A stretch of 56,945 bases of DNA from assembly GCA_011051715.1 (NCBI GenBank), contig DRKP01000059.1, positions 1 to 56,945 of the forward strand, written 5' to 3'. Shown here piece after piece: positions 17,035 through 37,862 of this stretch (position 1 is its first letter; the number at the start of each line of letters is the position of its first letter). A program made the position numbers and the translations under genes. Below the pieces are notes generated by a model that ran no database searches, was not told the DNA's origin, and worked only from the letters and a program-made list of their open reading frames with translations. Source of the DNA: Sedimenticola thiotaurini. Its GTDB lineage: Bacteria; Pseudomonadota; Gammaproteobacteria; Chromatiales; Chromatiaceae.

Positions 17035-17294
17035 GCTGGCTCCGCTGCCGGAAGAATGGGCCAAGGGTACGCAAGCCGTCGCCGAAAGCAACCCCGCCGT
17101 GGGGGATTGATGCATATCAGGAAAACCGGAACCAGCGACGGGGGCCGCGCCTGCGGACGCCGGAGCGGTGCTAGTATCAATGGGGTGCGCGGCCGCGGGT
17201 GGAGTGGCCGGGCGGTTATCGGTCACATATCGGCAGTCGCATGCCGCCCCGCTGCAGCGGCGGGTGCCTGGGGGAACGGGAGCGGTCCGGCGGG

Positions 17295-18761: not shown

Positions 18762-18763
18762 GC

Positions 18764-20023
18764 ATGGACTGGGTGGTGGAGCTGTTCGTCATTCTCTTCT
18801 TCCTGCTGCTGAAGGGGTTCTTCTCCGGTTCGGAGATCGCCATGGTCAACTCCGACAAGCTGAAGCTGCGCCACCAGGCCAAGCTCGGCAACCGCGGTGC
18901 CGCCCTGGTGCTGAAACTGTTCCGCTCGCCGGACGTGATCCTCGGCACCACCCTGGTCGGCACCAACATCGCCACCGTCACCGTCTCCACCCTGGGGGCG
19001 CTGCTGTTCATCGAACAGTTCGGCGACGTCGGCGACCTGCTGTCGGTGATCGTGATGACGCCGGTGCTGCTGATCCTCGGCGAGGTGGTGCCGAAGAGCG
19101 TGTTCCAGCAGAAGGCGGACGACATCGTCAGCAGGCTGATCTACGCCCTGCGCTTCTTCTCCTACCTGTTCTACCCGGTGATCTTCGTGTTCAGCCGGGT
19201 CGCACGGCTGGTCACCCGCATCGTCGGTGGCGGCACGGTGCCGCAGAACATGTTCATCACCCGGGAGGAGCTGCGGGTGCTGCTGGACCTGTCCGAGTCC
19301 ACCTCCGATCCGACCCGCATCGACAAGAAGCGCATCCGCCGCATCATCCGTTTCGCCGACACCACCGTCGGTGAGGCGATGATTCCGCTGGCCGACGTGG
19401 TTGGCTTCAACGAGACCCGCAACATGAAGGAGGCGGTGCGCATCGTGATGAAGCACGGCTACAACCGGCTGCCGGTGTACCGCGGCAACATCACCAACGT
19501 GAAGGGTATCCTCACCCTCAGCACCTGGGACCTGATGGATCCGCAGCTGGAGGAGCGCTCGTTCAGCGACTACGTCAGCCCGGCCCTCTACCTGTCGCCG
19601 AAACAGACCATCGACCGCGCCCTGCCGCAGCTGCAGGCGCGCGAGGACCACATGGCCATCGTGGTGGACGAGTTCGGCTCCGCCATCGGCATCCTGACCA
19701 TGGAGGACGTGTTCGAGGAGGTGGTGGGCGAGATCGACGTCGGCTACGACTTCGACGAATACCATCCCAAGCGCCGCGTCTACATCGAGCACGAGAGCGA
19801 CAGCTCCCACCTGATGAGCGGCCGGACGCCGATCTCCGAGGTCAACGACATCCTGCATGTCCAGTTCCCGGTCACCGAGGCCCACACCATCGGCGGCCTG
19901 ATCATCAGCCGCCTGCGCCGGCTGCCGAAGGAGGGGGACGCGATCGAGGAGGAGGGCTACCGCATGGAGGTGCTGGAGGCAGATGCCCGCTCGGTGGTGA
20001 AGGTGCGGGTGGAGCGGCTGTAG
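18764..20023 (+). CDS. DUF21-CBS-CorC_HlyC membrane protein, pair A second gene
   Basis: A 419-residue paralogue of the preceding gene but of a second subtype: [20 protein letters not shown] in the first helix region, then [16 protein letters not shown] and [19 protein letters not shown] repeats contain [29 protein letters not shown] and [20 protein letters not shown]. The C-terminal domain ends in [22 protein letters not shown] 18764 has GGAGG seven bases upstream; the GTG at 18758 overlapping the previous stop is too close to that site. The frame stays open through the upstream gene, but this is a GC-rich shadow, not a fusion. The two subtypes may form a heteromer, since the same order recurs at 30088-31374 and 28853-30088. 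Confidence 0.9.
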
Positions 20024-20033
20024 GGGCGGTCCG

Positions 20034-21236
20034 TCAGGTGAAGGAGAGCAGGGCGGCGGCCAGCCGCCGCGGATCGTAGACGGCGGTGTTGCCGCGGTCG
20101 ATCAGTTCGGTATCGATCACCTGCACGCCCTCCGCCCGCAGCCGTTTCAGTGCCGTCGACCCGGCGTAGTCGCCACGGCCACGATCCAGCAGCACGAAGT
20201 TGAGCAGCCGCCCGGTCGGACAGTCCTGCCCGGCGTCCCGGCGCAGCTGCGCCAGCAGCCGTCCGGCGGCCTGCTCCAGGTCCAGCCCCAGCTGCTCCGG
20301 ATCCGTCCCGAGATTGGGCACCCAGACCTTGGGGTTCAGGTTTGCCGCCACCGCCCGGCCCACGCCCCGGGGCAGCAGGTTGGCGAGCAGGCTGGAATGG
20401 AAGCTGCCGGGAGGGAAGCAGATCAGGTCCGCCCGTTCGATCAGTTTCCGGTTCTTCTTGCGGATGGTGGATTGTGCCGGCACATAGCGGTCCAGCCGCG
20501 CCGACAGGTAGAGACGCTCGATCGGCGAGGTGAGGGCGGCCACCTCCTTGCCGGTGAGGCGGTGCTGGCCGATCACCCGGCTGCCGTCGGCCAGATCCGC
20601 CGCCAGGTGCAGGTCGTCGTTGACCGTGGCCCGCACCGTGCCGAGCACGTTCACCAGCTTGGAGAAGAGGAAGATGATCGGATCCAGGTGCTGGTGGTTG
20701 TTCAGATAGCCGCCGGCCAGGATCAGGTTGCCGATGCTGGCGCCGCGCAGGTCGAAACCGGCCGGCATCGCCTCGCTGAAATAGCCCAGCTGGTTGCGGA
20801 TCAGGCGCCGCATCGGGTTGGAGATGGCCTTGATCATGGGATCCCGGCCCCGGGTCATCAGCCGCAGCCGGCGCGCCAGCCCGTCCCGGTCCCCGTCGGC
20901 GGGGAAGCGGTAGGTGAACAGGCGGTAGACGTCGGGCTGCCCGGTCACCGACTCGTCGGCCAGTGCCATCAGCCGGCTGCGCAGATCACCGATGGAGGGC
21001 ATGTCGAAGGCCTGGCGCAGTTTGGCCGAGCTGCCACCGGAATCGAACGGGGTGACGAAGTGGGTCGAGTTGTGGGTGTACTCCTTGAGCGCGCGGCTCA
21101 GCCGGTTGATGGCCGAGCCGCCGCTGAAGAACAGGATGGAAGGGCCCAGTTCCGGCGACTTGCGGTAGCGGCTGATGCGCAGCGGATCGGGCATGCTGAG
21201 GCGGCGGCTGATGCGGAGGCTGGGTGCGGAGGCCAT
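20034..21236 (-). CDS. CofD/YvcK-like protein of the GAK-type cluster
   Basis: A 400-residue protein of the superfamily containing CofD (2-phospho-L-lactate transferase) and YvcK (binds UDP-sugar). SILFFSGGSAINRLSRALKEY matches the glycine-rich nucleotide/substrate loop, and FVTPFDSGGSSAKLRQAF and MPSIGDLRSRLMAL correspond to the DDGGSSGRLR and GDIRN segments of that family. Further blocks are ASIGNLILAGGYL and ICFPPGSFHSSLLANLLPRG. This longer form fits what I recall of the CofD-related protein of the GAK system. The start is uncertain: ATG 21236 is preferred, ATG 21194 is possible, and no clear ribosome-binding site is seen. Divergent from the phosphotransfer operon beginning at 21398. The exact reaction is unknown. 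Confidence 0.8.
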   Translation of the reverse strand: MASAPSLRISRRLSMPDPLRISRYRKSPELGPSILFFSGGSAINRLSRALKEYTHNSTHFVTPFDSGGSSAKLRQAFDMPSIGDLRSRLMALADESVTGQPDVYRLFTYRFPADGDRDGLARRLRLMTRGRDPMIKAISNPMRRLIRNQLGYFSEAMPAGFDLRGASIGNLILAGGYLNNHQHLDPIIFLFSKLVNVLGTVRATVNDDLHLAADLADGSRVIGQHRLTGKEVAALTSPIERLYLSARLDRYVPAQSTIRKKNRKLIERADLICFPPGSFHSSLLANLLPRGVGRAVAANLNPKVWVPNLGTDPEQLGLDLEQAAGRLLAQLRRDAGQDCPTGRLLNFVLLDRGRGDYAGSTALKRLRAEGVQVIDTELIDRGNTAVYDPRRLAAALLSFT

Positions 21237-21397
21237 GATCGGGGCGGATGGTGGCGGGTGAAGGTTCCAGTGTAGCAAACCGCCTTCCCCCTGGCAGGCG
21301 TGCCGCCCACTTTTCCACTGTGACTGCCCGGGGTCACGGAAGCGGTCGTTTTTTTATCTTATGCTGGTATCGAAAGAGAGAGGAAAGGGAACCGCGC

Positions 21398-21868
21398 ATG
21401 CGCGAATACGAGTCGTCGATCCGCAATTCGGTACGGGCCATCATCGTCGAAGGGCCGGACGTGCTGTTGCTGCGCAAGCAGGACGACGACGGCAGCGAAC
21501 GCTACTCCCTTCCCGGTGGCGCCCAGGATCCGGGGGAGACCCTGGAGCAGGCGCTGCAGCGTGAATGCCTGGAGGAGATCGACTGCCGGGTCCGGGTACA
21601 GCGGCTGGCGGCGGTGGGCGACTGGTTCAAGCGCCGCAGCCGGCCACCGCACCAGTGGCGGCACCAGGTCGAGTTCCTGTTCCACTGCAGCGTTCCGGCC
21701 GACTACCGGCCCGCGAACGGTCCCCATCCGGACCGGCACCAGGTGGAGGTGGTATGGCGCCCGCGCGCGAATCTGGAGGGGTTGCGGCTGTTGCCGCGCC
21801 GCTACGTCCGCTTGCTGCAGGATGACGGCGCCGATCCCGGCGCATTCTATCTGGGGTGCATCGACTGA
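21398..21868 (+). CDS. Nudix hydrolase, first gene of the phosphotransfer operon
   Basis: A 156-residue Nudix enzyme expected to cleave a nucleoside diphosphate linked to another moiety. The Nudix box is present at about residues 42-65 (GGAQDPGETLEQALQR followed by ECLEEID), with Asp in place of the usual last Gly. It starts at ATG 21398, preceded by AAGGGA at eight bases. Upstream is an AT-rich TTTTTTTATCTTATG stretch that could contribute to a promoter. Two bases separate its stop from the PhoU-APH gene, so they are one operon. Substrate unknown; the context points to an NDP-linked metabolite. Confidence 0.85.
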   Translation: MREYESSIRNSVRAIIVEGPDVLLLRKQDDDGSERYSLPGGAQDPGETLEQALQRECLEEIDCRVRVQRLAAVGDWFKRRSRPPHQWRHQVEFLFHCSVPADYRPANGPHPDRHQVEVVWRPRANLEGLRLLPRRYVRLLQDDGADPGAFYLGCID

Positions 21869-21870
21869 GC

Positions 21871-23508
21871 ATGCGTACACCGAAGGGCATTCGGGACAAC
21901 CTCAGCTTTCTGACCGCCGAGGCGGCGGGCCAGGTGACCGGCCTGCGCGCTTTCCTGCGCCATGGCGGCCGCGCTGCGGCCAAGCGCATGCTGGAGCGCA
22001 GCGGCTACTCCCGCAACCTGAAGCTGCGCATCCAGGAGGGCTGCCTGAAGACGGTGATGGCCGCCGGCGGGGGCGAGGTGGATCTGCTGTCGCTGCGCGC
22101 CATGGAGACGGTGGCGGCGGACCTGGAGCGGATCACCCGGTACTGCCGTGACTGCGTCCAGCAGGTGCAGGGCCTGCCCGGTCGCCGCCTGCCCGGTCGC
22201 AAGCGTGTGCGCCGCATGCTGCGGCGGGTGCTGCGGGGAATCGGCCTGATCGACGCGGCGGTGGCGGGAAACGACATCCGGCTGGCGCTGCGCATCGGCC
22301 GCGTCCAGCACCGGCTGCAGCGGGAATGCGGCCGTCTGCGGCGCCGGCACATGCGGCGGCTGCGGCGCGGACGCGGGGTCGAGGGTGCGGTCGCGGGCCT
22401 GTTCCTGGCCCACTACCTGGAGCAGATGGGTGGGGCCCTGCTGAGCATCAGCGAATCGGTCATCTCCGCCAATCTGGGCCAGCCGGTGAGCATCGACCGC
22501 TATCGTTCCATGAAGGCGTCGATCCGCCGGCTGCAGGGGCCCGGGGACGGCAAGCAGGCGGATCTCTCCTTCGAGCCGATCGCCGAGACCCGCTCCGGCA
22601 GCGCCATCGCCGGCATCGGCGCCGCCGGCAGCGGCTACGTGGCGATCTACAAGGACGGGGTGAAACGCAAGCTGAAGGAGGAGCGCCAGGGGGTGGAGAA
22701 CTGGCACCAGATCTTCCCCGGACTGGCGCCGCGCATTCTCGACTACCGCAAGAACGGTCGCTCCGCCTCGCTGCTGATCGAGCACCTGGCCGGCCTGACC
22801 TTCGAACAGATTCTGCTGCATGAGTCGGAGGCGCTGCTGCAGCAGGCGCTCGCCGCACTGCGGCGGACCCTGCGCTCGATCTGGCGCGAGACCCGCGTCC
22901 GGCGTCCGGTGGCGGCCGGCTACATGGAGCAGCTGACCAGCCGGCTGGCCCAGGTCTACGCCATCCATCCCGAGTTCCAGCTCGGTGGCAGCCGCATCGG
23001 CCGGCTCAGACTGCCCTCCCTGCAGGGTCTGATCGATCGGGCACAGACACTGGAGCAGGGACTGCCGGCACCCTTCTCGGTCTATATCCACGGCGACTTC
23101 AACCTGGACAACATCATCTTCGATCCCGGCACCGGCCGCATCAACTTCATCGACCTGCACCGCTCGCGCTACATGGACTATGTCCAGGACGTCTCCGTCT
23201 TCATGGTCTCGGTCTACCGGCTGCAGATCCTGGATCTCGCCCGGCGGCGCCGCATCCTCCGCCTGAGCCGTGCCTTCCACCGCTTCGCCCGCAAGACGGC
23301 CCGGCGTCGCGGCGACGACACCTTCGAGATCCGGCTGGCCCTGGGGCTGGCCCGGTCCTTCATCACCTCCACCCGCTTCATCCTGGACAAGAGCCTGGCC
23401 CGCGCCATGTTTCTGCGCGGCCGCTACCTGATCGAGCAGGTGGTGGATACCGATCCGGCGAAGGCGGCCGGTTTCCGCCTGCCGGTCAAGGAGCTGTTCA
23501 TTGCCTGA
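21871..23508 (+). CDS. PhoU-like domain fused to an APH-type phosphotransferase
   Basis: A 545-residue protein. Residues 1-210 are all-helical and basic, with two PhoU-like blocks (LLSLRAMETVAADLERITRY; FLAHYLEQMGGALLSISESV). Residues about 230-540 form an aminoglycoside-phosphotransferase/protein-kinase-like fold: YVAIYKDGVKRKLKEERQG around the ATP-binding Lys, then catalytic loop HGDFNLDN (407-414) and INFIDLHRSRYMDYVQD (metal-binding Asp428 region). Antibiotic resistance is unlikely; similar APH-fold enzymes phosphorylate small metabolites. Tightly packed with the genes before (2 bases) and after (8-base overlap). Substrate unknown. Confidence 0.8.
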   Translation: MRTPKGIRDNLSFLTAEAAGQVTGLRAFLRHGGRAAAKRMLERSGYSRNLKLRIQEGCLKTVMAAGGGEVDLLSLRAMETVAADLERITRYCRDCVQQVQGLPGRRLPGRKRVRRMLRRVLRGIGLIDAAVAGNDIRLALRIGRVQHRLQRECGRLRRRHMRRLRRGRGVEGAVAGLFLAHYLEQMGGALLSISESVISANLGQPVSIDRYRSMKASIRRLQGPGDGKQADLSFEPIAETRSGSAIAGIGAAGSGYVAIYKDGVKRKLKEERQGVENWHQIFPGLAPRILDYRKNGRSASLLIEHLAGLTFEQILLHESEALLQQALAALRRTLRSIWRETRVRRPVAAGYMEQLTSRLAQVYAIHPEFQLGGSRIGRLRLPSLQGLIDRAQTLEQGLPAPFSVYIHGDFNLDNIIFDPGTGRINFIDLHRSRYMDYVQDVSVFMVSVYRLQILDLARRRRILRLSRAFHRFARKTARRRGDDTFEIRLALGLARSFITSTRFILDKSLARAMFLRGRYLIEQVVDTDPAKAAGFRLPVKELFIA

Positions 23509-24397
23509 CAGAGACGACGTGCGCATCGGCGTGGTGGGGATCCCCGGCAAGTGGTCCACCGAGACCCTGGCCGACGCGGTAGAGGCCCGCACCGGCTACC
23601 GCCGGGTGATCGACATGGCGGAGGTCACCCTGGACCTGCAGGGGCGGCGCCTGCTGCAGCGGGACCTGGACCTGTGCACCCTGGACGGTCTGCTGGTGAA
23701 GAAGATCAGTGCCAGTTACAGCCCCGCCACCCTCGACCGGCTGGAGCTGCTGCGGGTGGCGGAGGCGGCCGGGGTGCGGGTGTTCAGCCCGGCGGAACGG
23801 ATGCTGCGCCTGATCGACCGGCTCGCCTGCACCGTCACCCTGCGCAACGCCGGCATCCCGATGCCGGAGACCCGGGTCACCGAGGATCCGGAGGCGGCGC
23901 TGGCGGCGGTACGGGCCTTCGGCAGCGCCGTGTTCAAGCCGCTCTACTCGACCAAGGCCCGGGGCATGTGCGTGATCGGAACCGATGAGGGTGAGACGGC
24001 GGCGCGCGACGCGATCCGGCGCTTCCAGGCCGACAACCCGGTGATGTACATCCAGCGGCGCATCGAGCTGCCTGGACGGGACATGGGGATGGTGTTCCTC
24101 GGTGGCGACTACCTGGGCAGCTATGCCCGGGTCTCCCAGGGGGATGCCTGGAACACAACCATCCACAGCGGTGGCCGCTACGCCGCCTGTGATCCGTCGC
24201 CGGAGCTGGTGGAGCTGGCACGCCGCGCCCAGGCCCCGTTCGGGATGGACTTCACCACCGTCGACGTGGCCGAATCGGAGCAGGGAGCGGTGGTGTTCGA
24301 GGTCTCCGCCTTCGGCGGCTTCCGCGGCGCGCTGGAGGGGGCGGGGGTGGATGCGGCCGCCCGCTACGTGGACTATGCGCTGGAGCGGCTGGGCTGA
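23501..24397 (+). CDS. RimK-like ATP-grasp enzyme of the GAK-type cluster
   Basis: A 298-residue ATP-grasp ligase-type enzyme. The start is TTG 23501, decided by AAGGAG seven bases upstream; it overlaps the previous gene's end by eight bases. The N-terminal third (IGVVGIPGKWSTETLADAV; LLVKKISASYSPATLDRLELL) is the pre-ATP-grasp region. The lid and nucleotide site include IDRLACTVTLRNAGIPMPET, VFKPLYSTKARGMCVIG and VMYIQRRIELPGRDMGMVFL. The C-terminal metal-site region is VVFEVSAFGGFRGALEGAGV, where RimK proteins have an E-N-A/P-G pattern. Family members join a carboxylate to an amine via acyl phosphate. The acceptor here is unknown, but no dedicated peptide substrate is evident unless it is the amphi-Trp protein at 28571. 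Confidence 0.85.
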   Translation: MPDRDDVRIGVVGIPGKWSTETLADAVEARTGYRRVIDMAEVTLDLQGRRLLQRDLDLCTLDGLLVKKISASYSPATLDRLELLRVAEAAGVRVFSPAERMLRLIDRLACTVTLRNAGIPMPETRVTEDPEAALAAVRAFGSAVFKPLYSTKARGMCVIGTDEGETAARDAIRRFQADNPVMYIQRRIELPGRDMGMVFLGGDYLGSYARVSQGDAWNTTIHSGGRYAACDPSPELVELARRAQAPFGMDFTTVDVAESEQGAVVFEVSAFGGFRGALEGAGVDAAARYVDYALERLG

Positions 24398-24401
24398 CCG
24401 C

Positions 24402-24411
24402 GGGGGGGGGG
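24402..24411 (+). repeat. G10 homopolymer ahead of the HprK-related kinase
   Basis: Ten consecutive G between the ATP-grasp stop (24397) and the kinase ATG (24419). The kinase's ribosome-binding site GAAGGA begins directly at its end. Such tracts slip during replication. Confidence 0.9.
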
Positions 24412-24418
24412 AAGGATC

Positions 24419-25504
24419 ATGGGAATGGACCTGGCGACCGCCGCCGACCTGCTGCGGGGTGACGAGCCGCTGCAGCGGCAGGCGCTCCACCTGCACCTGG
24501 AGGGCGCTGTCGTCCGGGTGCGCTCCAACTCGGCGCCGTTGCTGCAGCGCCTGGAGCACTACTTCGGCCACGTCACCGGACCACCGGCGGAGACGATGAT
24601 CGAGGTGATCGCCATCGACCGGGATCCGCCGGACCCCGGGGTGGCGTTTCGCGACTGGGCGCGGGAGCCGGGCAAGCAGGGGCGCAAGGACGCCTGGTAC
24701 GACCTGCCCGGAGGGCGGCTGATCCGCAAGGTGCGTACCGGCATGCTGTTCCTGCAGAGCGAGTCGGTGCGTATCGCCGCCGGTCCCTGCCTGGAGTACG
24801 ACAACCAGGTGATCAATTTCATCAACGCCCAGTACATGAACCTGCTGCAGCAGCGGGGCTGCATCATCTGCCACGCCTCCGGGCTGGTGCACGACGGCCG
24901 CTGCCTGGGGATCGCCGGCTTCTCCGGTGGCGGCAAGTCGACCCTGATGCTGCATCTGCTGGCCCATGACGGCATCGCCTTCCTCACCAACGACCGCCTG
25001 TTCATCTGCGACGACCACGGCTCCCCCCGCGCCCTGGGCATCCCCAAGCTGCCGCGGGTCAACCCCGGCACCATCGTCCACGATCCGATCCTGCAGTCGA
25101 TGATCCCGGAACCGGAACGGCAGCGCCTGCTGCGGCTTCCGGAACAGCAGCTGTGGGAACTGGAACAGAAGTACGACGTCATGATCGATGAACTCTACGG
25201 GCCGGGAAAGATCGTCCCGAGCGCCCCGCTGGCGTCGTTCCTGGTGCTCAACTGGCAACGCGGCAGCGCCGGGCCGCTGCGGGTGGAGAGGGTGGAGCTG
25301 GCGCAGCGGCGCGACCTGCTGCGGGCGATCATGAAGTCGCCGGGACCCTTCTATCAGTATGCCGACGGCCATTTCCAGCGCGACGACCAGGGCTTCGACG
25401 AGGCCGCCTACCTGGCGGCCCTGGAGGGGGTGACCGTCCACGAGGCACGCGGTGGCGTCGATTTCGATGCCCTCACCCGCCACTGCCTGGAACGGATACT
25501 TTGA
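24419..25504 (+). CDS. HprK-related kinase (HprK_rel_B type)
   Basis: A 361-residue kinase with a P-loop resembling that of HPr kinase/phosphorylase: GIAGFSGGGKSTLMLHLLA (Walker A at 167-175), followed by FLTNDRLFICDDHG, corresponding to the HprK DD(N) segment. The N-terminal 150 residues contain a family-specific domain with RDWAREPGKQGRKDAWYDLP and INFINAQYMNLLQQRGCIICHASG. True HPr kinase motifs for HPr recognition are not evident. It may phosphorylate a small molecule or a partner protein such as the amphi-Trp protein; that is conjecture. ATG 24419 has GAAGGA upstream and is preceded by a G10 run that could alter expression. Confidence 0.85.
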   Translation: MGMDLATAADLLRGDEPLQRQALHLHLEGAVVRVRSNSAPLLQRLEHYFGHVTGPPAETMIEVIAIDRDPPDPGVAFRDWAREPGKQGRKDAWYDLPGGRLIRKVRTGMLFLQSESVRIAAGPCLEYDNQVINFINAQYMNLLQQRGCIICHASGLVHDGRCLGIAGFSGGGKSTLMLHLLAHDGIAFLTNDRLFICDDHGSPRALGIPKLPRVNPGTIVHDPILQSMIPEPERQRLLRLPEQQLWELEQKYDVMIDELYGPGKIVPSAPLASFLVLNWQRGSAGPLRVERVELAQRRDLLRAIMKSPGPFYQYADGHFQRDDQGFDEAAYLAALEGVTVHEARGGVDFDALTRHCLERIL

Positions 25505-25535
25505 CCCCGGCACCGCACCGGACGGGAGGAGAACC

Positions 25536-26498
25536 ATGGACCACGAACTGCTGATCCTGCGCCACGGCAAGTCCGACTGGAGCCGGCGGGTGGACGACTT
25601 CCACCGCCCGCTCAAGGACCGCGGCAAGCGGGCGGCCCAGCGCATGGGGACCTGGCTGCTGGAACAGGGGCTGGTGCCGGACCGGATCGTCACTTCGCCG
25701 GCGGAGCGGGCCCTCACCACGGCGGAGAAGTGCGCCAAGAGCATGGGCCTGGCGGCGGCCGGGATTCGGCAGGAGCCGCGAATCTACGAGGCCGGCCTGG
25801 AGCAGCTGCTGGCGGTGGTGCGGGGGCTGTCCGGGGACGACCGCCGGGTGATGCTGGTGGGACACAACCCCGGCCTGGAGGAGCTGCTGCGTCATCTCGC
25901 GGCAGGGCTTCCGCCGCTGCCGGAGGACGGCAAGCTGCTGCCCACGGCGACCCTGGCGCGGCTCTCCCTGGATGGCCCCTGGTCGGCCGTGGGGGAGGGC
26001 GGGGCGCGGCTGCTGGAGCTGGTGCGGCCGGCGCAGCTGCCGAAGGGGTTTCCCTGGCCGGGACCGGGTGGGTCCGAGCGCCGGCCCCGGCCCGCCTACT
26101 ACTATCACCAGTCCTCGGTGATCCCCTGGCGCCGCCGCGATGGCCGGCTGGAGGTCCTGATCACCGGTTCCAGCCAGCGCAAGCACTGGGTGGTGCCGAA
26201 GGGCATCCAGGAGCCCGGCCTGTCGCCCCAGGCCTCGGCCGCCAAGGAGGCGCGGGAGGAGGCTGGGGTCGAGGGGGTGGTCGGCGAACGCCCGCTCGGG
26301 CACTACGACTACCACAAGTGGGGCGCCACCTGCAGCGTGCAGGTCTATCCCATGGAGGTGACCCGGGAACTGCCGGAGGAGGAGTGGGAGGAGCACCACC
26401 GGGGCCGCCGCTGGGTGACACCGGAGGAGGCGGCACGCCAGCTCCGGGAGAAGGCGCTGGCACCCATCATCCTGGGTCTGGCGGAGGCGCTGGACTGA
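25536..26498 (+). CDS. SixA-type histidine phosphatase fused to a Nudix-fold domain
   Basis: A 320-residue two-domain enzyme, start ATG 25536 with a GGAGGA site. Residues 1-155 are a SixA-like histidine phosphatase: LLILRHGKSDW (phospho-accepting His), DRIVTSPAERALTTAE and VMLVGHNPGLEELL (second His). Residues about 180-318 are a Nudix domain of the type that ends in KWGATCSVQVYPMEV: VIPWRRRDGRLEVLIT, then WVVPKGIQEPGLSPQASAAK followed by EAREEAGV. The Nudix box keeps the REx2EE core in the form EAREE, but Leu stands where the first Glu is usual. Possible roles are dephosphorylating a protein-histidine or a polyphosphorylated metabolite, with the Nudix half acting on a diphosphate bond. Two bases before the next phosphatase gene. 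Confidence 0.85.
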   Translation: MDHELLILRHGKSDWSRRVDDFHRPLKDRGKRAAQRMGTWLLEQGLVPDRIVTSPAERALTTAEKCAKSMGLAAAGIRQEPRIYEAGLEQLLAVVRGLSGDDRRVMLVGHNPGLEELLRHLAAGLPPLPEDGKLLPTATLARLSLDGPWSAVGEGGARLLELVRPAQLPKGFPWPGPGGSERRPRPAYYYHQSSVIPWRRRDGRLEVLITGSSQRKHWVVPKGIQEPGLSPQASAAKEAREEAGVEGVVGERPLGHYDYHKWGATCSVQVYPMEVTRELPEEEWEEHHRGRRWVTPEEAARQLREKALAPIILGLAEALD

Positions 26499-26499
26499 C

Positions 26500-27204
26500 A
26501 TGGCCCGGCTCGCCATCGCCCTGATTCGCCACGGCGACTACGAACAGTTGCCGGACACCCCCAGCGCGCACCAGCCGTTTCCCCTCACCGCGGCGGGGGA
26601 GGCCCAGGCGCGGCAGGCGGCCACCCGGCTGCGGGAGACGGTGGAGCGTCACGGCTGGCGCCTGGTGACGCCGCTGCACAGCTCACAGATGCTGCGCGCC
26701 TGGCAGACCGCCGACATCCTGGCCCGGGAGCTGGCCGACCTGTTCGACGAGCATCCCACCATCGACTGTTTCGACGAGCTGGCGGAGCGGGGCCTGGGGG
26801 CGGCCGCCAATCTCACCCTGGCGCAGATCGAGCAGGTGCTGGCGGCGGACCCCCGCTACGACGCTCCACCGCCGGGCTGGAAGGCGGACAGCTACTACCG
26901 GCTGCCGCTGCAGGGTGCCGAGTCGCTGCTGCAGGCGGGGGCGCGGGTGGCCGGGCACCTGCAGCGGGTGCAGGCGGTGCTGGCGCGGACGCTGACACAG
27001 GACAGCCTGTTTCTGTGCGTCGGGCACGGCGCCGCCTTCCGCCATGCCGCTGCCCATCTCGGCGTGCTGCGGTTCGACGACCTCCCCCGTCTCAGCATGT
27101 ACCACGCCCGGCCGGTGCTGCTGGAGGTGGACCGGGCGGGGCGCTGGCAGCACCTGGAAGGGGCGTGGAAGATGCGCGCCACCGGCGGGACCGGGCTGGA
27201 CTGA
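26500..27204 (+). CDS. Histidine phosphatase superfamily protein
   Basis: A 234-residue phosphoglycerate-mutase-like phosphatase: LIRHGDYEQ near the N-terminus gives the catalytic His, LHSSQMLRAWQTADILA supplies the phosphate-binding Arg, and FLCVGHGAAFRHAAAHLGV gives the second His. The acid/base position is probably in the ELAERGLGAAANL segment. It starts at ATG 26500, one base after the previous stop, and its own stop overlaps the next ATG (TGATG). Substrate unknown; its place among kinases and phosphatases suggests reversal of a phosphorylation made by a neighbour. Confidence 0.85.
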   Translation: MARLAIALIRHGDYEQLPDTPSAHQPFPLTAAGEAQARQAATRLRETVERHGWRLVTPLHSSQMLRAWQTADILARELADLFDEHPTIDCFDELAERGLGAAANLTLAQIEQVLAADPRYDAPPPGWKADSYYRLPLQGAESLLQAGARVAGHLQRVQAVLARTLTQDSLFLCVGHGAAFRHAAAHLGVLRFDDLPRLSMYHARPVLLEVDRAGRWQHLEGAWKMRATGGTGLD

Positions 27205-28574
27205 TGGCCGACTGTCCCCTGCCCCGCTACCGGGGGAGCCGCTGGCTCCGGGCACGGCTGCCGGAGGGCTGCGAGCTGTGGCTGCCGGGCAGCCCGCACA
27301 GGGTGCAGCGGGACTTCACCCGTCATCCCAGGCTGGGGCGGGAGCTGAGGGCCATCCTCGACCCGGACGGGTGGCGCTGGCCGAAACGCCGGGTGCTGTT
27401 CTTCACCGATCTGCATGCCGACGCCGATGCCTTCGCCGATTCCCTGGTGGCGTCGGGCGGGGTCCGCAAGACCGGTCCGGACAGCCGCGACCTGGTGCTG
27501 ACCGGGGCCGGGCGCAAGGCCCTGTTCCTGATTGGCGGCGACTGCTTCGACAAGGGACCGAGCAGCCTGCAGCTGCTGCGTACCATCCGCCGGCTGCAGA
27601 AGCGCGGGGCGCGGGTGCAGATCCTGGCCGGCAACCACGACGTGCGGCTGATGCTCGGCATCCGTTCCCTGTTCCTGCCGCCGGATCCGCGCAACGACCA
27701 TTTCTTCGTGCGCATGGGCCCGAAGGTGATGCCGCTGCTGCGGGAGATCGACCAGCACTACCTGCGCCAGCCGGGCGCGCTCGCCGGGCTCCCCCCGGAA
27801 CAGGTCTGCCGCCGGCTGATCTACCCCCCGGAGGGATGGTTCCGGGAGTTTCCCCGCTTCGCCCGCTGGGTGATGCCGGACGATGCCATAGAACGGGAGA
27901 TGAAGAGGCTGCGGACCAAGATGGAGCGCTTCGACGACGACTGTCGCCGGGCCGGCCTCAGCCTGCGCCGGGTCTATGGCGCGGCGTTGTGGTGGCAGCG
28001 CCAGTTCCTGCAGCCGAAGGGGAAGTATTCCTGGTTCTTCCGCGATCTGCGCCTGGCCAGCCGCAAGGGTTCGTTTCTGTTCATCCATGGCGGTCTGGAC
28101 GACCGCATCGCCCGGCTGATCCGGCGCCATGGGGTGAAGCGTCTGAACCGGACCTTCCGCGAGCAGTTGTACGACGAGCCGTTCGAGTTCTACTACGGTG
28201 CCCTCGCCAACACCGTGCGGACCAAGTACCGGGCGGTGGACATGCCGTTGACCCGGCACGGGGCCGGCATGTTGCGGGAGCGGGGCATCCGGGCGGTGGT
28301 GCACGGCCACAACCGCCGCCGCCAGGGGCAGCGCCTGGCCCTGCACAAGGGGCTGCTCCACTTCGAGTGCGATGCCACGGTGGACCGCAACACGCGCCGT
28401 CGCGAGGGGTTGTCCGGCACCGGCGCCGCGGTCACCGTGTTCGATCCGGCGGGGTGGGCGCTCGGGATCAGTTCCGACTGGCCCCGGGCGAGGCTGTTCC
28501 GGCCCGCCGCCATGCTGGATGCGATCGGCCGGCCGGCGCCGCGGCCGCGGGACAGGAGAGAGATATCATCATGA
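27204..28574 (+). CDS. Metallophosphoesterase (calcineurin-like), GAK-cluster member
   Basis: A 456-residue phosphoesterase with all core metal-binding motifs: FFTDLHADADAF (Asp69, His71), GGDCFDKGPSS (Asp113), LAGNHDVRLM (Asn144, His145), FIHGGLDD and AVVHGHNRRRQG. The N-terminal 55 residues and a long basic insert (residues about 190-290) are extra to a minimal phosphatase. The GGDCFDKG and GNHD motifs resemble the PPP-type/bis(5'-nucleosyl)-tetraphosphatase group, so protein or dinucleoside polyphosphate substrates are possible. ATG 27204 overlaps the upstream stop; its own stop overlaps the amphi-Trp gene as ATGA. A second metallophosphoesterase lies at 31381-32832 but shares only the core. 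Confidence 0.85.
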   Translation: MADCPLPRYRGSRWLRARLPEGCELWLPGSPHRVQRDFTRHPRLGRELRAILDPDGWRWPKRRVLFFTDLHADADAFADSLVASGGVRKTGPDSRDLVLTGAGRKALFLIGGDCFDKGPSSLQLLRTIRRLQKRGARVQILAGNHDVRLMLGIRSLFLPPDPRNDHFFVRMGPKVMPLLREIDQHYLRQPGALAGLPPEQVCRRLIYPPEGWFREFPRFARWVMPDDAIEREMKRLRTKMERFDDDCRRAGLSLRRVYGAALWWQRQFLQPKGKYSWFFRDLRLASRKGSFLFIHGGLDDRIARLIRRHGVKRLNRTFREQLYDEPFEFYYGALANTVRTKYRAVDMPLTRHGAGMLRERGIRAVVHGHNRRRQGQRLALHKGLLHFECDATVDRNTRRREGLSGTGAAVTVFDPAGWALGISSDWPRARLFRPAAMLDAIGRPAPRPRDRREISS

Positions 28575-28846
28575 AACAGGGCAAGAAGAGCTTTCGTCAC
28601 GAGTCCCTGCAGGACCGGCGCAGCGTGCGCGCCATCCTCGAGGCGCTGGTGGAGGGAATCGACAAGGGCAGGATCCGCTTCAGCGATGACGACGACGAGA
28701 TCCTGATGGAACCGGCCGGCCTGCTGCACCTGAAGCTGCGGGCGACCCAGGAAGAGGAGCGCCATCGCCTCACCCTGCGCATCAGCTGGCAGGTGGAGGG
28801 GGAGGGGGACAAGGGCCGGAGGCGGCTGCGGGTGACGGCCGACTGA
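28571..28846 (+). CDS. Amphi-Trp domain protein
   Basis: A 91-residue protein at the end of the operon, overlapping the phosphoesterase stop by four bases (ATGA). It shows the features I recall for the amphi-Trp domain: basic N-terminus KQGKKSFRHES, a helix QDRRSVRAILEALVEGIDKG, then two amphipathic strands (LLHLKLRATQEEE; RLTLRISWQV) with a conserved Trp. It is small, soluble and acidic/basic patterned, with no catalytic motif. In GAK-type loci this protein travels with the ATP-grasp and HprK-related genes, so it is a good candidate for the target or carrier of the modification. That role is inference. Confidence 0.8.
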   Translation: MKQGKKSFRHESLQDRRSVRAILEALVEGIDKGRIRFSDDDDEILMEPAGLLHLKLRATQEEERHRLTLRISWQVEGEGDKGRRRLRVTAD

Positions 28847-28852
28847 GCATCC

Positions 28853-30088
28853 CTACCAGCGGACCCGCACCTCCTGCACCGCCTGGGCCGTGCTGCGGTG
28901 GACCCGCAGGCTGATGCCGTTCTCCCGGATCTCGCTACCCTCGGGGGGGACCCGGTGCAGCTTGGCCAGCAGCAGTCCGGAGAGGGTGGCATAGTCGCCC
29001 CGTGGCAGCTCGATGCCCAGCTTTTCGCACAGTTCGTCCAGTTCGATGCGGGCGCTGACCAGGAAGTCGCGCTCTCCCAGTCGCCGGATCCACTGCTCCT
29101 CCCGGGCATCCCGGTCATACTCGTCCTCCAGCTCCTCCACCACCTCCTCCATGATGTCCTCCATGGTGACGATGCCCTCGGCGCCGCCGAACTCGTCCAC
29201 CACTACCGCCACCACGGTCCCGGCCTTGCGCAGCTCCAGCATCAGGTCCTTGATCCCCTTGGAGGCGGGGACGTAGTAGGCGGGTCGGACGAACCCGGTG
29301 ATCGGCCGCTCCGGATCCACGTCCAGCAGGTCCAGGGTGTGGAGGATGCCGACGATGCGGTCGACGCGCTCGTCGTACACCGGCAGCCGGACGTGGGACT
29401 CCCGCGCCGAGATCTCCCGCGCCTCGCCACAGCTGATCCCCTTCTCCACTGCCACCACCTCGATCAGCGGCCGCATCACCTCCTGCACCCGGGTCTCGGA
29501 GAAGTCGAACATGCGCCGGATCATGCTCTGCTCCACCGGCTGGATGTCGCCGCGGCTTACCGCCGGCATCTGCAGCATGGTGACGATCTCCTCGCGCAGG
29601 GTGAAGGGGTTGCGCTGCCCGCCCCCGGCCAGCCTGGCCAGCAGGCGGGTGATCAGGCTGAACACCAGCAGGATGGGGTAGAACAGGTAGGAGAAGAAGC
29701 GCAGGGCGAAGATCACCACCGGGGTCAGGCTGTCGGCACGCTGCTGGAACACGCTCTTCGGTACGATCTCGCCGAAGATCCAGATCAGCGGCGCCGCCAG
29801 CAGGATCGCCAGCCAGCTGCCGTAGTCGCCGAACAGGTGGATCATCAGTGCCGTCACCATGGTGGTGTTGGTGACCACCGAGATGTTGGTGCCGACCAGG
29901 GTGGTGGAGAGCAGCCACTCCGGCCTCTCCAGCATCTTCAGCGCCAGGCGGGCCCCCTTGGAGCCCTTCGCCGCCTTGTGCCGCAGCTTGATCTGGTCGG
30001 CGCTGACCACGCCGATCTCGGATCCGGAGAAGAAGCCCTCCAGCAGCAGGCAGAGGGCGATGATCAGCAGGGTGCCGAAGACGTCCAT
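28853..30088 (-). CDS. DUF21-CBS-CorC_HlyC membrane protein, pair B second gene
   Basis: A 411-residue CNNM/CorC-family protein. It belongs to the same subtype as the gene at 18764-20023: [36 protein letters not shown] and [16 protein letters not shown] correspond block by block. The CBS pair contains VMRPLIEVVAV, HVRLPVYDERVDRIVGILH and DEFGGAEGIVTMEDIMEEVV. The CorC_HlyC domain contains GDYATLSGLLLAKLHRVPPE. ATG 30088 overlaps the upstream stop (TGATG). It is convergent with the phosphotransfer operon: only six bases separate its stop from the amphi-Trp stop. Confidence 0.9.
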   Translation of the reverse strand: MDVFGTLLIIALCLLLEGFFSGSEIGVVSADQIKLRHKAAKGSKGARLALKMLERPEWLLSTTLVGTNISVVTNTTMVTALMIHLFGDYGSWLAILLAAPLIWIFGEIVPKSVFQQRADSLTPVVIFALRFFSYLFYPILLVFSLITRLLARLAGGGQRNPFTLREEIVTMLQMPAVSRGDIQPVEQSMIRRMFDFSETRVQEVMRPLIEVVAVEKGISCGEAREISARESHVRLPVYDERVDRIVGILHTLDLLDVDPERPITGFVRPAYYVPASKGIKDLMLELRKAGTVVAVVVDEFGGAEGIVTMEDIMEEVVEELEDEYDRDAREEQWIRRLGERDFLVSARIELDELCEKLGIELPRGDYATLSGLLLAKLHRVPPEGSEIRENGISLRVHRSTAQAVQEVRVRW

Positions 30089-33535: not shown

Positions 33536-34801
33536 TCAGCTGAAGATGCCCTTGAACAGGAAGAAGAAGAGGGCGGCCAGGATGGCGCCGGCCGGCAGGG
33601 TGACGATCCAGGAGACCACGATGTTGCCGATCACCCGCAGATCCAGGGCACCGACGCCGCGGGCCAGGCCCACGCCCATGACGCAGCCGACCGCGATCTG
33701 GGTGGTGGAGACCGGCAGCCCGGTCTTGGAGGCGAGCACCACGGTGGTGGCGGCCGCCAGGGTGGCGCAGTAACCGCGGGTCGGGGTCAGCTCGGTGATC
33801 TTGGTGCCGATGGTCTGCATCACCTTGTAGCCCATGGTGGCGAGACCGACGACGATGCCGAAGCCGCCCAGGGCCAGGATCCACAACGGCATCCCCGCCT
33901 TCTGGCCCACCTCGCCGCCGCTCTGGATCACCGCGACCACGGCGGCCAGGGGACCGATGCCGTTGGCCACGTCGTTGGAGCCGTGGGCGAAGGCCATGGC
34001 GGCGGCGGTGAAGATCATCAGCGGGGTGAACACCTTCTCCACGCTGGCGTAGTGGTACTCCCGGTCCGCCTCCTGGTCCACCTTGACCCGGTCGATCATG
34101 AGCTTGCCGATGGCGGCGACGACGATTCCGATGACGGTCGCCCAGATGAAGCTCTCGGTGGTGCTCAGCTCCAGCTTGAGGTGCTTGAGACCCTTGAACA
34201 GGGTCACCAGGGAGACGATCCAGCCGACCAGGAAGACGTACAGGGGGCCCCACTTGCGGGCGTTCAGGAACGGATGCTCGGTGTTGATGATGAACTTGCG
34301 GATGCTCATCATCAGCAGCAGGGCGATGGTGCCGCCGACCAGCGGGGAGACGATCCAGCTGGCGACGATGGAGCCGATCTTGCCCCAGTGCACCGAACCC
34401 ACGCCCAGTCCCGCCACTGCGAAGCCGACGATGGCGCCGACGATGGAGTGGGTGGTGGAGACCGGCCAGCCGCGCGCGGAGGCGACCATCAGCCAGATCG
34501 CCGCCGCCAGCAGGGCCGCCAGCATGCCGTAGACCAGCAGCTCCGGCGAGCCGGCGATGGCGTCGGCGTCGATGATCCCCTTGCGGATGGTCTTGGTGAC
34601 CGAGCCGCCGGCGATGAAGGCGCCGGCGAACTCGAAGATCGCCGCCACGACGATGGCCTGTTTGACGGTGATGGCGCCGGATCCCACCGAGGTACCCATG
34701 GCATTGGCCACGTCGTTGGCGCCGATGCCCCAGGTCATGTAGAGGCCGAAGACGATGGCCATGGCCATGAATACGAAACCCCATTCAGTGATGATGTCCA
34801 T
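33536..34801 (-). CDS. PiT-family low-affinity inorganic phosphate transporter
   Basis: A 421-residue membrane protein that imports phosphate, usually as a metal-phosphate complex driven by protons or sodium. The two inverted PiT signatures are present: GANDVANAMGTSVGSGAIT (residues 27-45) and FAHGSNDVANGIGPLAAVVA. Both GWPVSTTHSIVGAIVGF and GLPVSTTQIAVGCVMGVG repeats are intact. ATG 34801 has AAGGAA six bases upstream. It lies 112 bases after the DUF47 gene in the same direction, the usual PiT/DUF47 operon, in which the PhoU-like protein is thought to regulate transport. Metal-phosphate transport would fit the neighbouring CorC-type proteins. Confidence 0.95.
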   Translation of the reverse strand: MDIITEWGFVFMAMAIVFGLYMTWGIGANDVANAMGTSVGSGAITVKQAIVVAAIFEFAGAFIAGGSVTKTIRKGIIDADAIAGSPELLVYGMLAALLAAAIWLMVASARGWPVSTTHSIVGAIVGFAVAGLGVGSVHWGKIGSIVASWIVSPLVGGTIALLLMMSIRKFIINTEHPFLNARKWGPLYVFLVGWIVSLVTLFKGLKHLKLELSTTESFIWATVIGIVVAAIGKLMIDRVKVDQEADREYHYASVEKVFTPLMIFTAAAMAFAHGSNDVANGIGPLAAVVAVIQSGGEVGQKAGMPLWILALGGFGIVVGLATMGYKVMQTIGTKITELTPTRGYCATLAAATTVVLASKTGLPVSTTQIAVGCVMGVGLARGVGALDLRVIGNIVVSWIVTLPAGAILAALFFFLFKGIFS

Positions 34802-34913: not shown

Positions 34914-35594
34914 TCAGCGCGCGATCAGCAGGCGCATTCGGTCCCCCACCTTCTCCGCGTAGTCGGCGAGATCGCCGATCCACTGGATCATCTGGTACCA
35001 GAAGATCACCGACACCGGCTTCATCTCGTCCTCCTGGGAGAACAGGGTGCGGGCCAGGTTCATGCCCATCTCGTCGGTCTCGTCCTCGATCTCGCTCAGG
35101 CGCGCGACCATCTCGTCCACCTTGGACGCCTCGCGGCCGCGGAAGCCGCTCTCGATCAGCTCGTCCAGTTCCTCGATGATGGTGGCGGCCTGGTCGCAGG
35201 TGTCGACGCAGCGCTGGACCAGGGCCAGCAGCGGCTCCTCCATCACCTTGGGAACCGACATGTCCCGCTCCACCATCAGACCGGCGATGTCCTGGGCGGT
35301 GTCGGCGATGTAGTCCTGCATGTCGAGCAGTTCCAGCAGGTCGCGCCGGTCGACCGGCATGAACAGGCTCTTGGGCAGGTGGGCGCGCAACTCGTTCTCC
35401 AGTTCGTCCGCCTCCTGTTCCTTGGCGAAGATCAGCTCCTTCTGCCGGTTCAGCGCCTCCTGGTCACCGGCCACCAGGGCCTGGAACAGGGCCGGGACCT
35501 CGGCCACGCATTCGCCGACGATACGCATGTGCGCCTGCAGTGGCTTGAACGGCGAACGCCCCAGCAGGGACGCAATCGGATTGGTGGTTCGCAT
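34914..35594 (-). CDS. DUF47 PhoU-like phosphate transport regulator
   Basis: A 226-residue all-helical protein of the DUF47/PhoU-related family (TIGR00153 type as I recall it). It has PLQAHMRIVGECVAEVPALF near the N-terminus, FAKEQEADELENELRAHL, and the metal-cluster-like DRRDLLELLDMQDYIADTAQD and EIEDETDEMGMNLARTLF helices. ATG 35594 is preceded by GGAGG at six bases; longer open frame upstream is non-coding in character. First gene of the operon with the PiT transporter. Probably binds or gates the transporter at the cytoplasmic face. Confidence 0.9.
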   Translation of the reverse strand: MRTTNPIASLLGRSPFKPLQAHMRIVGECVAEVPALFQALVAGDQEALNRQKELIFAKEQEADELENELRAHLPKSLFMPVDRRDLLELLDMQDYIADTAQDIAGLMVERDMSVPKVMEEPLLALVQRCVDTCDQAATIIEELDELIESGFRGREASKVDEMVARLSEIEDETDEMGMNLARTLFSQEDEMKPVSVIFWYQMIQWIGDLADYAEKVGDRMRLLIAR

Positions 35595-35744
35595 CGATTT
35601 CCTCCACGAGTGGAATGACTGAATCTCTGTAAAGTCGGGTCTTCCCTGCCGGGGGCGTCCGGGTTCGGTGGCCGGTGGCAAAGCACCGCTCTTCTCCCGA
35701 CCGGAAGACCCACGTCACGGGCATCGGCGTCACCCTTTCCCGGG

Positions 35745-36047: not shown

Positions 36048-37862
36048 ATGCTGAGGAAAATATTTCTCCCCACCATTCTCGCGGTACTCACCTACGGTTT
36101 CTGGATCAGTCCGAACTTCAAGGAGATCTCCGCCGGCGTGGCCATCTTCCTGTTCGGCATGCTGTCGCTGGAGGAGGGGTTCAAGGCGTTCACCGGTGGC
36201 CTGCTGGAGCGGCTGTTGCGCAGGACCACCGACAAGCTGTGGAAGAGCCTGAGTTTCGGTATCGTCACCACCACGCTGATGCAGTCGAGCTCGCTGGTGT
36301 CGGTGATCACCATCTCCTTCCTCAGCGCCGGGCTGATCACCCTGGCGGCGGGCATCGGCATCATCTTCGGCGCCAACCTGGGCACCACCACCGGTGCCTG
36401 GCTGATCGCCGGCTTCGGCATGAAGGTGAAGATCTCGGCCTACGCCATGCCGATGCTGGTATTCGGCATCATCCTGGTGTTCCAGAAGTCGCGCAGCCTG
36501 AAGGGGATAGGCTACATCCTGGCCGGTCTCGGCTTCCTGTTCCTCGGCATCCACTACATGAAGGACGGCTTCGAGGCCTTCCGCGACACCATCGACCTCA
36601 CCGAGTACGCGGTGAGCGGCTACAAGGGAATATTGATCTTCACCCTGCTCGGTGTCGCCGCCACCGTGATCATGCAGTCGAGCCACGCCACCCTGGTGAT
36701 CATCATCACCGCCCTGGCGGCCCAGCAGATCACCTACGAGAACGGCCTGGCCCTCGCCATCGGAGCCAATATCGGCACCACCATCACCGCCATCCTGGGA
36801 TCTCTCAGCTCCAATATCCAGGGCAAGCGGCTGGCCGGTGCGCACCTCATCTTCAACGTGGTCACGGCGGTGATCGCCATCGCCTTCATCCACCAGATCA
36901 AGGACGGGGTTGACATCATTGCCAGCGGGATCGGCATCGCCGCCGACGACTGGACCCTGAAGCTGGCGGTGTTCCACACCGTCTTCAACACCATCGGCAT
37001 CCTGGTGATGATGCCGGCGATCCACCAGCTGGTGAACTTTCTGGAACGGGTGATGCCGGAGCGGGCGGTCTCGGTGGCCGCGCCCAAGTATCTCAGCGAG
37101 TCCGCCATCGAGCTGCCCGACACGGCGATCGAGGCGGTGCGCAAGGAGACCCTGCACCTGTTCGACAACGCCTTCGAGATCATCGCCCACGGGCTCAGCC
37201 TGCACCGCCACGACATCCTCTCGGACCGTGACCTGGAGGAGGTGGTGCGGGAAAACAGCCGGGTCATGCCGATCGACATCGACGAGCTCTACAACCGCAA
37301 CGTGAAGGGACTGTACAGCGACATCGTCGACTTCATCAGCCGTGCCCAGACCCGGATGACGCCGGAGCAGGCGGACGAGCTGTTCCGGCTGCGGGCGGCG
37401 GGCCGGGATATCGTCGAGGCGATCAAGGACACCAAGCACATGCACAAGAACCTGGTGCAGTACCTGGCCTCCGACAACCCCTACATCCGCGACGAATACA
37501 ACAAGATCCGGCTGCAGCTGGCGTCGGTGCTGCGGCGGCTGACCGAGGCCCGCAACAATCCCGACGATCCCACCGCCGTGCTCGAGCTGGACAGCCTGAA
37601 GCTGGAGATGGAGGAGAACGACTCCACCGCCAACGGTGTGCTGGAATCCCTGATCCGCGACGGCAGGATCACCCCGCAGATGGCCACCTCGTTGATGAAC
37701 GACTACACCTATGCCTATGATGTCACCCGCAACCTGGTGCAGATGGGTGAGGTGCTGTTCGCCACCGGTGATCTGGAGCAGAGAGAGGCGGAACGCAGCA
37801 TCACCCTGGATTCGGACGAGGTGGACGAGGTGATGGCGGGCGAAAGAGGCGAGGAACGATGA
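36048..37862 (+). CDS. Na/Pi-cotransporter (NptA/YjbB-type) with C-terminal PhoU-like domain
   Basis: A 604-residue membrane protein. Residues about 10-340 form two Na_Pi_cotrans repeats, each with a QSS motif: TTTLMQSSSLVSVITISF and TVIMQSSHATLVIIITAL, plus GANLGTTTGAWLIAG and GANIGTTITAILGSL. Residues about 355-600 are helical and PhoU-like (AIEAVRKETLHLFDNAFEII; ADELFRLRAAGRDIVEAIKD; LNDYTYAYDVTRNLVQMGEV-type helices). The E. coli relative YjbB exports phosphate when intracellular levels are high, so efflux is as plausible as uptake. Start ATG 36048 has AGGA upstream. Its stop overlaps the small basic gene that follows. Confidence 0.9.
   Translation: MLRKIFLPTILAVLTYGFWISPNFKEISAGVAIFLFGMLSLEEGFKAFTGGLLERLLRRTTDKLWKSLSFGIVTTTLMQSSSLVSVITISFLSAGLITLAAGIGIIFGANLGTTTGAWLIAGFGMKVKISAYAMPMLVFGIILVFQKSRSLKGIGYILAGLGFLFLGIHYMKDGFEAFRDTIDLTEYAVSGYKGILIFTLLGVAATVIMQSSHATLVIIITALAAQQITYENGLALAIGANIGTTITAILGSLSSNIQGKRLAGAHLIFNVVTAVIAIAFIHQIKDGVDIIASGIGIAADDWTLKLAVFHTVFNTIGILVMMPAIHQLVNFLERVMPERAVSVAAPKYLSESAIELPDTAIEAVRKETLHLFDNAFEIIAHGLSLHRHDILSDRDLEEVVRENSRVMPIDIDELYNRNVKGLYSDIVDFISRAQTRMTPEQADELFRLRAAGRDIVEAIKDTKHMHKNLVQYLASDNPYIRDEYNKIRLQLASVLRRLTEARNNPDDPTAVLELDSLKLEMEENDSTANGVLESLIRDGRITPQMATSLMNDYTYAYDVTRNLVQMGEVLFATGDLEQREAERSITLDSDEVDEVMAGERGEER

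Follow-up and report, generated by a model that had tools for sequence, protein, structure and literature searches.

GAK gene cluster of Sedimenticola thiotaurini

Contig DRKP01000059.1 of Sedimenticola thiotaurini (assembly GCA_011051715.1), which is 56.9 kb of a 3.39-Mb Pseudomonadota genome and is referred to here, over its full length of 56,945 nucleotides, as the window, carries a GAK system. This gene set is defined computationally by four NCBIfam models (TIGR04354 to TIGR04357), and is a frequent annotation among marine and sulfur-oxidising bacteria. Nine intact open reading frames, each with the expected domains, are present at positions 20034 to 28846, one divergently transcribed and eight organized in a tight operon, as follows.

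20034..21278, minus strand: GAK CofD/YvcK-like protein, accessory (TIGR04357, 540 bits)
21195..21397: divergent intergenic region between the CofD-like and Nudix genes, a probable promoter region (sequence inspection)
21398..21868, plus strand: Nudix hydrolase, accessory (PF00293, 58 bits)
21871..23508, plus strand: PhoU-APH fusion kinase, core (PhoU and APH Pfam domains)
23501..24397, plus strand: GAK ATP-grasp enzyme, RimK/MptN/LysX-like, core (TIGR04356, 449 bits)
24419..25504, plus strand: HprK-related kinase B, a predicted PEPCK/HprK-fold P-loop kinase, core (TIGR04355, 371 bits)
25536..26498, plus strand: SixA-Nudix fusion, accessory (His_Phos_1 and NUDIX; SixA, 56 bits)
26500..27204, plus strand: histidine phosphatase, branch 1, CobC-like, core (PF00300, 68.5 bits)
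27204..28574, plus strand: calcineurin-like metallophosphoesterase, ApaH-like, core (PF00149)
28571..28846, plus strand: amphi-Trp protein, core, a candidate acceptor or scaffold (TIGR04354, 70 bits)

All four curated models pass their cut-offs at this locus: TIGR04357 (CofD-like) scores 540.3 bits (cut-off, 340), TIGR04356 (ATP-grasp) 448.6 bits (cut-off, 300), TIGR04355 (HprK-related kinase B) 371.4 bits (cut-off, 200), and TIGR04354 (amphi-Trp) 70.2 bits (cut-off, 31). The cluster is thus a complete and true member of the GAK system, as an original prediction made from the sequence letters had proposed. Of the seven junctions within the operon, three overlap (by 8, 4, and 1 bases) and four are gaps (of 1, 2, 21, and 31 bases); the original prediction correctly described a tight eight-gene run in one direction with a 31-base gap but overlooked the 21-base gap that precedes the kinase gene. 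The TTG start listed for the CofD-like gene is probably too early, with an ATG near 21194 being likelier, and no sigma-70 consensus was found in the divergent intergenic region.

The XXXCH protein (TIGR04358) has no match in the 12 GAK genomes described below, in a search in which the control likewise matched nowhere. No paper naming the GAK system, amphi-Trp, or the HprK-related kinase was found in a library that lacks most subscription journals and all preprints, and a wider literature search returned only papers containing the string XXXCH, which concern cytochromes and iron judging by their titles.

Core and accessory genes

GAK loci were collected by a profile search of 299 Pseudomonadota genomes, in 12 of which the ATP-grasp protein scores above the cut-off, and an alignment of these 12 sequences yielded 80 further named loci, kept from 498 relatives, in Gammaproteobacteria, Alphaproteobacteria, Mariprofundaceae, and one planctomycete. 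Gene maps show that gene order is nearly constant across the ∼90 loci, and the PhoU-APH profile identifies exactly the 12 of 299 genomes that carry the GAK ATP-grasp gene; the arrangement of the cluster is therefore far beyond chance. The metallophosphoesterase profile matches 14 of the 299 genomes, the two additional ones being GAK loci cut by contig ends, and among the 299 this protein is thus present only alongside GAK loci. Of the 12 GAK genomes, 11 have the amphi-Trp protein, which also occurs in one genome with a truncated GAK locus and in seven others that lack GAK.

Gene content was counted in the 45 GAK loci that have enough flanking sequence. PhoU-APH, ATP-grasp, kinase, histidine phosphatase, and metallophosphoesterase genes are all present in 45/45 and amphi-Trp in 44/45, with SixA-Nudix (30/45), Nudix (28/45), and CofD-like (24/45) genes being optional. 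CofD, present least often, is ruled out as a core enzyme; it scores above the cut-off in only six of the genomes, in one of which GAK is absent and in two of which the gene lies at a distance from the cluster. One stand-alone copy, at L123 (G006:C1:3097001-3116000; loci are numbered as in our set), is a GAK-type CofD-like gene of 556 bits in a genome without a GAK ATP-grasp gene. A plasmid of Tritonibacter carries the six core genes alone, and one of Qingshengfaniella carries the six together with CofD and Nudix genes. Both of these plasmid-borne clusters (L187 and L188) lie on Rhodobacterales plasmids that are predicted to be non-mobilizable. Pairwise protein distances among the six core families are correlated (Spearman, 0.48 to 0.75), as expected for joint inheritance.

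These locus counts, the co-occurrence among genomes, and the plasmid-borne six-gene set identify the real unit as a six-gene phosphotransfer module to which CofD/YvcK-like, Nudix, and SixA-Nudix proteins are optional additions. The NCBI definition lacks three of the six (PhoU-APH, histidine phosphatase, and metallophosphoesterase, which carry generic annotation in the plasmid records) and names CofD, which is accessory. The proposal that the extra enzymes belong with the ATP-grasp/kinase/amphi-Trp genes is borne out for these three, which occur just as regularly as the ATP-grasp and kinase genes; rare co-occurrence with the core, which would have counted against the proposal, is clearly not what the loci show, and the nine-gene set that had been treated as one unit is reduced to its six constant members.

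Pho boxes and phosphate genes at GAK loci

The Pho-box motif (as in PMC4415409), CTGTCAT-N4-CTGTCAT, was scored in the 300 bases upstream of 71 GAK operons. Among twelve spacers, N4 performs best, with 10 loci scoring at least 11, compared with 3 to 5 for the other spacers and 0 to 2 high-scoring loci for permuted half-sites. A strict form, TGTMAY-N5-TGTMAY, picked after the first scan, occurs with a period of 11 upstream of 7 of the 71 loci (0 to 1 at other periods), and dinucleotide shuffles give a mean of 0.04 loci and a maximum of 2 in 200. Sixteen strict sites are present across all loci, of which 11 head a GAK operon, a CHAD-ParA-GAK operon (as at L035), or a pstS gene beside GAK (as at L064 and L078, where pstS adjoins GAK), and the control windows described below contain one strict site in 800 kb. 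About six genus-level lineages are involved. Among cultured GAK carriers, Gilvimarinus and Zhongshania have strict boxes, and Marinobacter xestospongiae and Thalassospira have weaker ones. No Pho boxes are present at the stand-alone CofD genes (L123 to L125) or at the two plasmid loci.

The genes flanking GAK were clustered without prior choice of families, and the commonest families include an Na/Pi cotransporter, CHAD, a ParA-like ATPase, and a PstS-like protein. Controls were 40 windows of 20 kb from GAK genomes, which amount to more sequence in total than the GAK flanks; CHAD, PstS, and Na/Pi genes are near GAK in 9, 7, and 11 cases and in the controls in 0, 0, and 1 to 2. Any phosphate or polyphosphate gene is present at 19 of 77 GAK loci and in 3 of 40 control windows (p ∼2e-5 per base, a value computed as if all loci were independent, although related ones are not). 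This neighbourhood spans Gammaproteobacteria, Mariprofundaceae, Alphaproteobacteria, and the one planctomycete, with a pstS-pstA-pstB-phoU stretch adjoining GAK in Ketobacter and pstSCAB following GAK in the planctomycete Stieleria. ABC transporter neighbours are common in the controls too, GGDEF genes are not clearly different, and the GAK flanks have no uptake or precursor gene in common.

The CHAD-ParA pair lies beside GAK at L035 (1043-3324), L037, L046, L049, L051, L054, L061, L067, and L104, and it is within or at the head of the GAK cluster itself at L035 and L037. CHAD domains bind polyphosphate (PMC6537752). The CHAD-ParA pair may position polyphosphate granules. PPK1 was rejected as a partner, as none is present in the window's genome, which does have three PPK2 genes.

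Three phosphate genes in the window lie 4.7 to 9 kb downstream of the GAK cluster.

33536..34801, minus strand: PiT-type phosphate permease (NCBIfam PiT/CysP-type permease matches, below cut-off)
34914..35681, minus strand: DUF47/TIGR00153 PhoU-like partner of PiT (PF01865, 190 bits; TIGR00153, 156 bits)
36048..37862, plus strand: Na/Pi cotransporter (PF02690, 161 bits; NF037997, 169 bits)

A link of GAK to phosphate starvation, uptake, and storage is well supported by the PhoB boxes upstream of GAK in several lineages and by its location among genes for phosphate uptake and polyphosphate binding. This wiring, which the original prediction overlooked, is the strongest functional clue.

Predicted properties of the GAK proteins

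The kinase has no convincing relative in a sequence search of the PDB and no Pfam match to Hpr_kinase_C (PF07475), and its fold is assigned from an AlphaFold2 model with a predicted local distance difference test score (pLDDT) of 93.9. In structural alignment the whole model matches ATP-dependent PEPCK (Z, 17.1; 302 residues; root mean square deviation, 4.1), and its C-terminal half matches HprK (Z, 13.9; 131 residues). Foldseek returns PEPCK and HprK matches with E values of 1e-7 to 1e-4, and profile-profile comparison gives E values of 2.7e-5 for PEPCK and 1.6e-3 for HprK. On this modelling evidence the protein is a predicted P-loop kinase of the PEPCK/HprK fold, with the label "HprK-related" understating its PEPCK-like architecture. 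Genuine HprK genes lie elsewhere in several GAK genomes, including that of the window.

Among 88 copies of the kinase the P-loop and residues H152, K173, D192, and R213 are invariant, as are R82, K90, R100, and K104. PEPCK has a histidine that binds metal, and His152 aligns with it. The P-loop and the metal-ligand-type His and Asp positions are common to the GAK kinase and the PEPCK/HprK fold, but identity is only ∼13%, and a profile alignment places Ile-Asn in the GAK kinase at the Lys-Lys pair of PEPCK.

The ATP-grasp protein groups with RimK, LysX, and MptN by sequence family and fold (NCBIfam and PDB). The metal motif of ATP-grasp enzymes of this type is EVN, whereas in GAK it is replaced by EVS in 91 of 93 copies and by EIS in one. 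The motif HGDFNxDN is present in 90/90 PhoU-APH proteins, which match PhoU structures by profile. The metallophosphoesterase has DxH, GGDxxDKGP, and GNHD in 75/75, and its closest PDB profile matches are to ApaH. The "CofD/YvcK-like" gene holds to the second half of its name: its five PDB matches, of which the named ones are UPF0052 (YvcK family), include no CofD, so that by these matches it is YvcK-like rather than a 2-phospho-L-lactate transferase. YvcK is a UDP-GlcNAc-binding regulator in Bacillus (PMC7525490).

The amphi-Trp protein is modelled (pLDDT, 86) as one helix followed by four strands. Its N-terminal motif, F8-x-H10-x-S12-x-x-D15, has residues conserved in 62 to 68 of 68 GAK copies and is missing from amphi-Trp proteins outside GAK (L179 and L181 to L186) where these were read. 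For the make-activate-attach-remove logic that the original prediction put forward, perhaps on amphi-Trp, this GAK-specific and nearly invariant motif is the one piece of support found. An HPr-like fold was considered and rejected in that no significant fold match was found, a result that does not by itself prove a new fold.

Proposed role and alternatives

The composition, synteny, co-occurrence, and conserved catalytic motifs of the module are established. Four points are new relative to the NCBI definition: three core families beyond those it names, the reduction of CofD to an accessory, the likeness of the kinase to PEPCK, and the Pho/polyphosphate wiring. The reading that we prefer, with a probability of roughly 60%, is that this complete GAK system is a six-gene phosphotransfer module tied to phosphate, running a write/erase cycle that is controlled by phosphate status. 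The three ATP-using enzymes would place phosphoryl groups, or ligated groups activated by phosphate, on a shared target, from which the phosphatases and Nudix enzymes would erase them, and the PhoU domain would make the cycle responsive to phosphate status. When phosphate becomes scarce, the outcome would be the building or breakdown of a phosphorylated compound or of the amphi-Trp protein, possibly at polyphosphate granules. A small anionic molecule is favoured as the target by the PEPCK-like kinase and the Nudix and ApaH-like parts, whereas the regular presence of amphi-Trp and the motif specific to its GAK copies speak for that protein.

Several observations weigh against this write/erase cycle. 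The operon of the window has no recognisable Pho box (its best site scores 9 of 14, which is background level), most of the 71 loci have no strict one, and phosphate genes are absent from the surroundings of many GAK loci, the two plasmid copies among them. Related lineages supply several of the neighbourhood cases, and CHAD is rejected as a genome-wide partner of GAK, being present in 148 of 299 genomes and in 6 of the 12 with GAK. Ligase activity is possible for the ATP-grasp protein, whose chemistry may also be altered by the change to EVS; the roles given to the enzymes are predicted from sequence rather than from known activities; and the fold search with amphi-Trp returned nothing significant (best Foldseek E value, 1.4; best Z, 2.2).

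Two alternatives, each possible but rather unlikely, differ in what is modified. In the first, the module is a protein-modification circuit in which the kinase, PhoU-APH, and ATP-grasp enzymes act on amphi-Trp (for example, by phosphorylation of Ser12 or His10 or by ligation of amino acids), the phosphatases take the modification off again, and amphi-Trp in its modified form serves as the regulatory output. Precedents are HprK, whose target is a small protein, and the RimK-type ATP-grasp ligases, which also modify protein; these, together with the near-constant presence of amphi-Trp and its near-invariant motif, are consistent with such a circuit. However, the kinase as a whole resembles PEPCK, which acts on small molecules, more closely than HprK, the amphi-Trp model has no HPr-like match, and up to four phosphatases are not obviously needed for one small acceptor.

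In the second, a dedicated phosphorylated compound, cofactor-like or for storage, is produced and salvaged by the cluster, which would be expressed at low phosphate as a means of scavenging or sparing; the pathway would comprise an MptN-like ATP-grasp ligation, two kinases, and house-cleaning Nudix enzymes and phosphatases. The closeness of the ATP-grasp protein to MptN and the RimK/LysX ligases points this way, the Nudix and ApaH-like parts fit cleavage of phosphoanhydrides, and the many invariant Arg and Lys residues of the kinase (R82, K90, R100, and K104) are expected for an anionic substrate. The CofD-like part, the would-be phospho-acyl step, is YvcK-like and optional, however, and the flanks hold no constant uptake or precursor gene.

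A further and improbable version has GAK as a phosphate-starvation signalling or storage circuit built around a putative highly phosphorylated (pyrophosphorylated) molecule, which the ATP-grasp enzyme and two kinases would make, the histidine, metallo-, and Nudix phosphatases would unmake, and PhoU and amphi-Trp would read. If true, GAK would correspond in function to eukaryotic inositol-pyrophosphate signalling (PPIP5K, Nudix pyrophosphatases, and polyphosphate), which also combines an ATP-grasp kinase, a histidine phosphatase, and Nudix enzymes with phosphate homeostasis (PMC11836120, PMC12678693). The likeness is purely functional, one of analogy and not homology; the ATP-grasp subfamily and the phosphatase branch differ from those of GAK. 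Adjacency by chance or housekeeping, with ordinary phosphatases and Nudix enzymes simply lying beside a GAK locus, finds nothing in its favour except that the extra enzymes are generically annotated, and it is refuted by their exact phylogenetic co-occurrence, with the invariant order and the plasmid-borne minimal set also against it, making it extremely improbable.

The six-gene redefinition and the link to phosphate and polyphosphate turn a generic list of kinases and phosphatases into one testable pathway, and the phosphate link, seen in several lineages, gives the function-unknown GAK system a first concrete, testable role. If this reading is correct, some marine bacteria carry an undescribed phosphate-response chemistry that is sometimes plasmid borne.

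Other genes near the cluster

The GAK cluster of the window is bracketed by four CNNM/CorB-type transporter genes, arranged as two pairs (17237-20023 and 28853-31374). CNNM genes are enriched near GAK, but among related sulfur-oxidising gammaproteobacteria, and a link to GAK was rejected. Beside the PiT gene, the minus-strand segment 31381-33465 codes for a second metallophosphoesterase (483 amino acids) and a small P-loop ATPase/kinase-like protein (210 amino acids), neither of which has an NCBIfam match or recurs near other GAK loci. On the other side of the cluster, a minus-strand gene (14549-16501) codes for a CLP1-type P-loop kinase domain fused to an RNase Z-like metallo-beta-lactamase domain.

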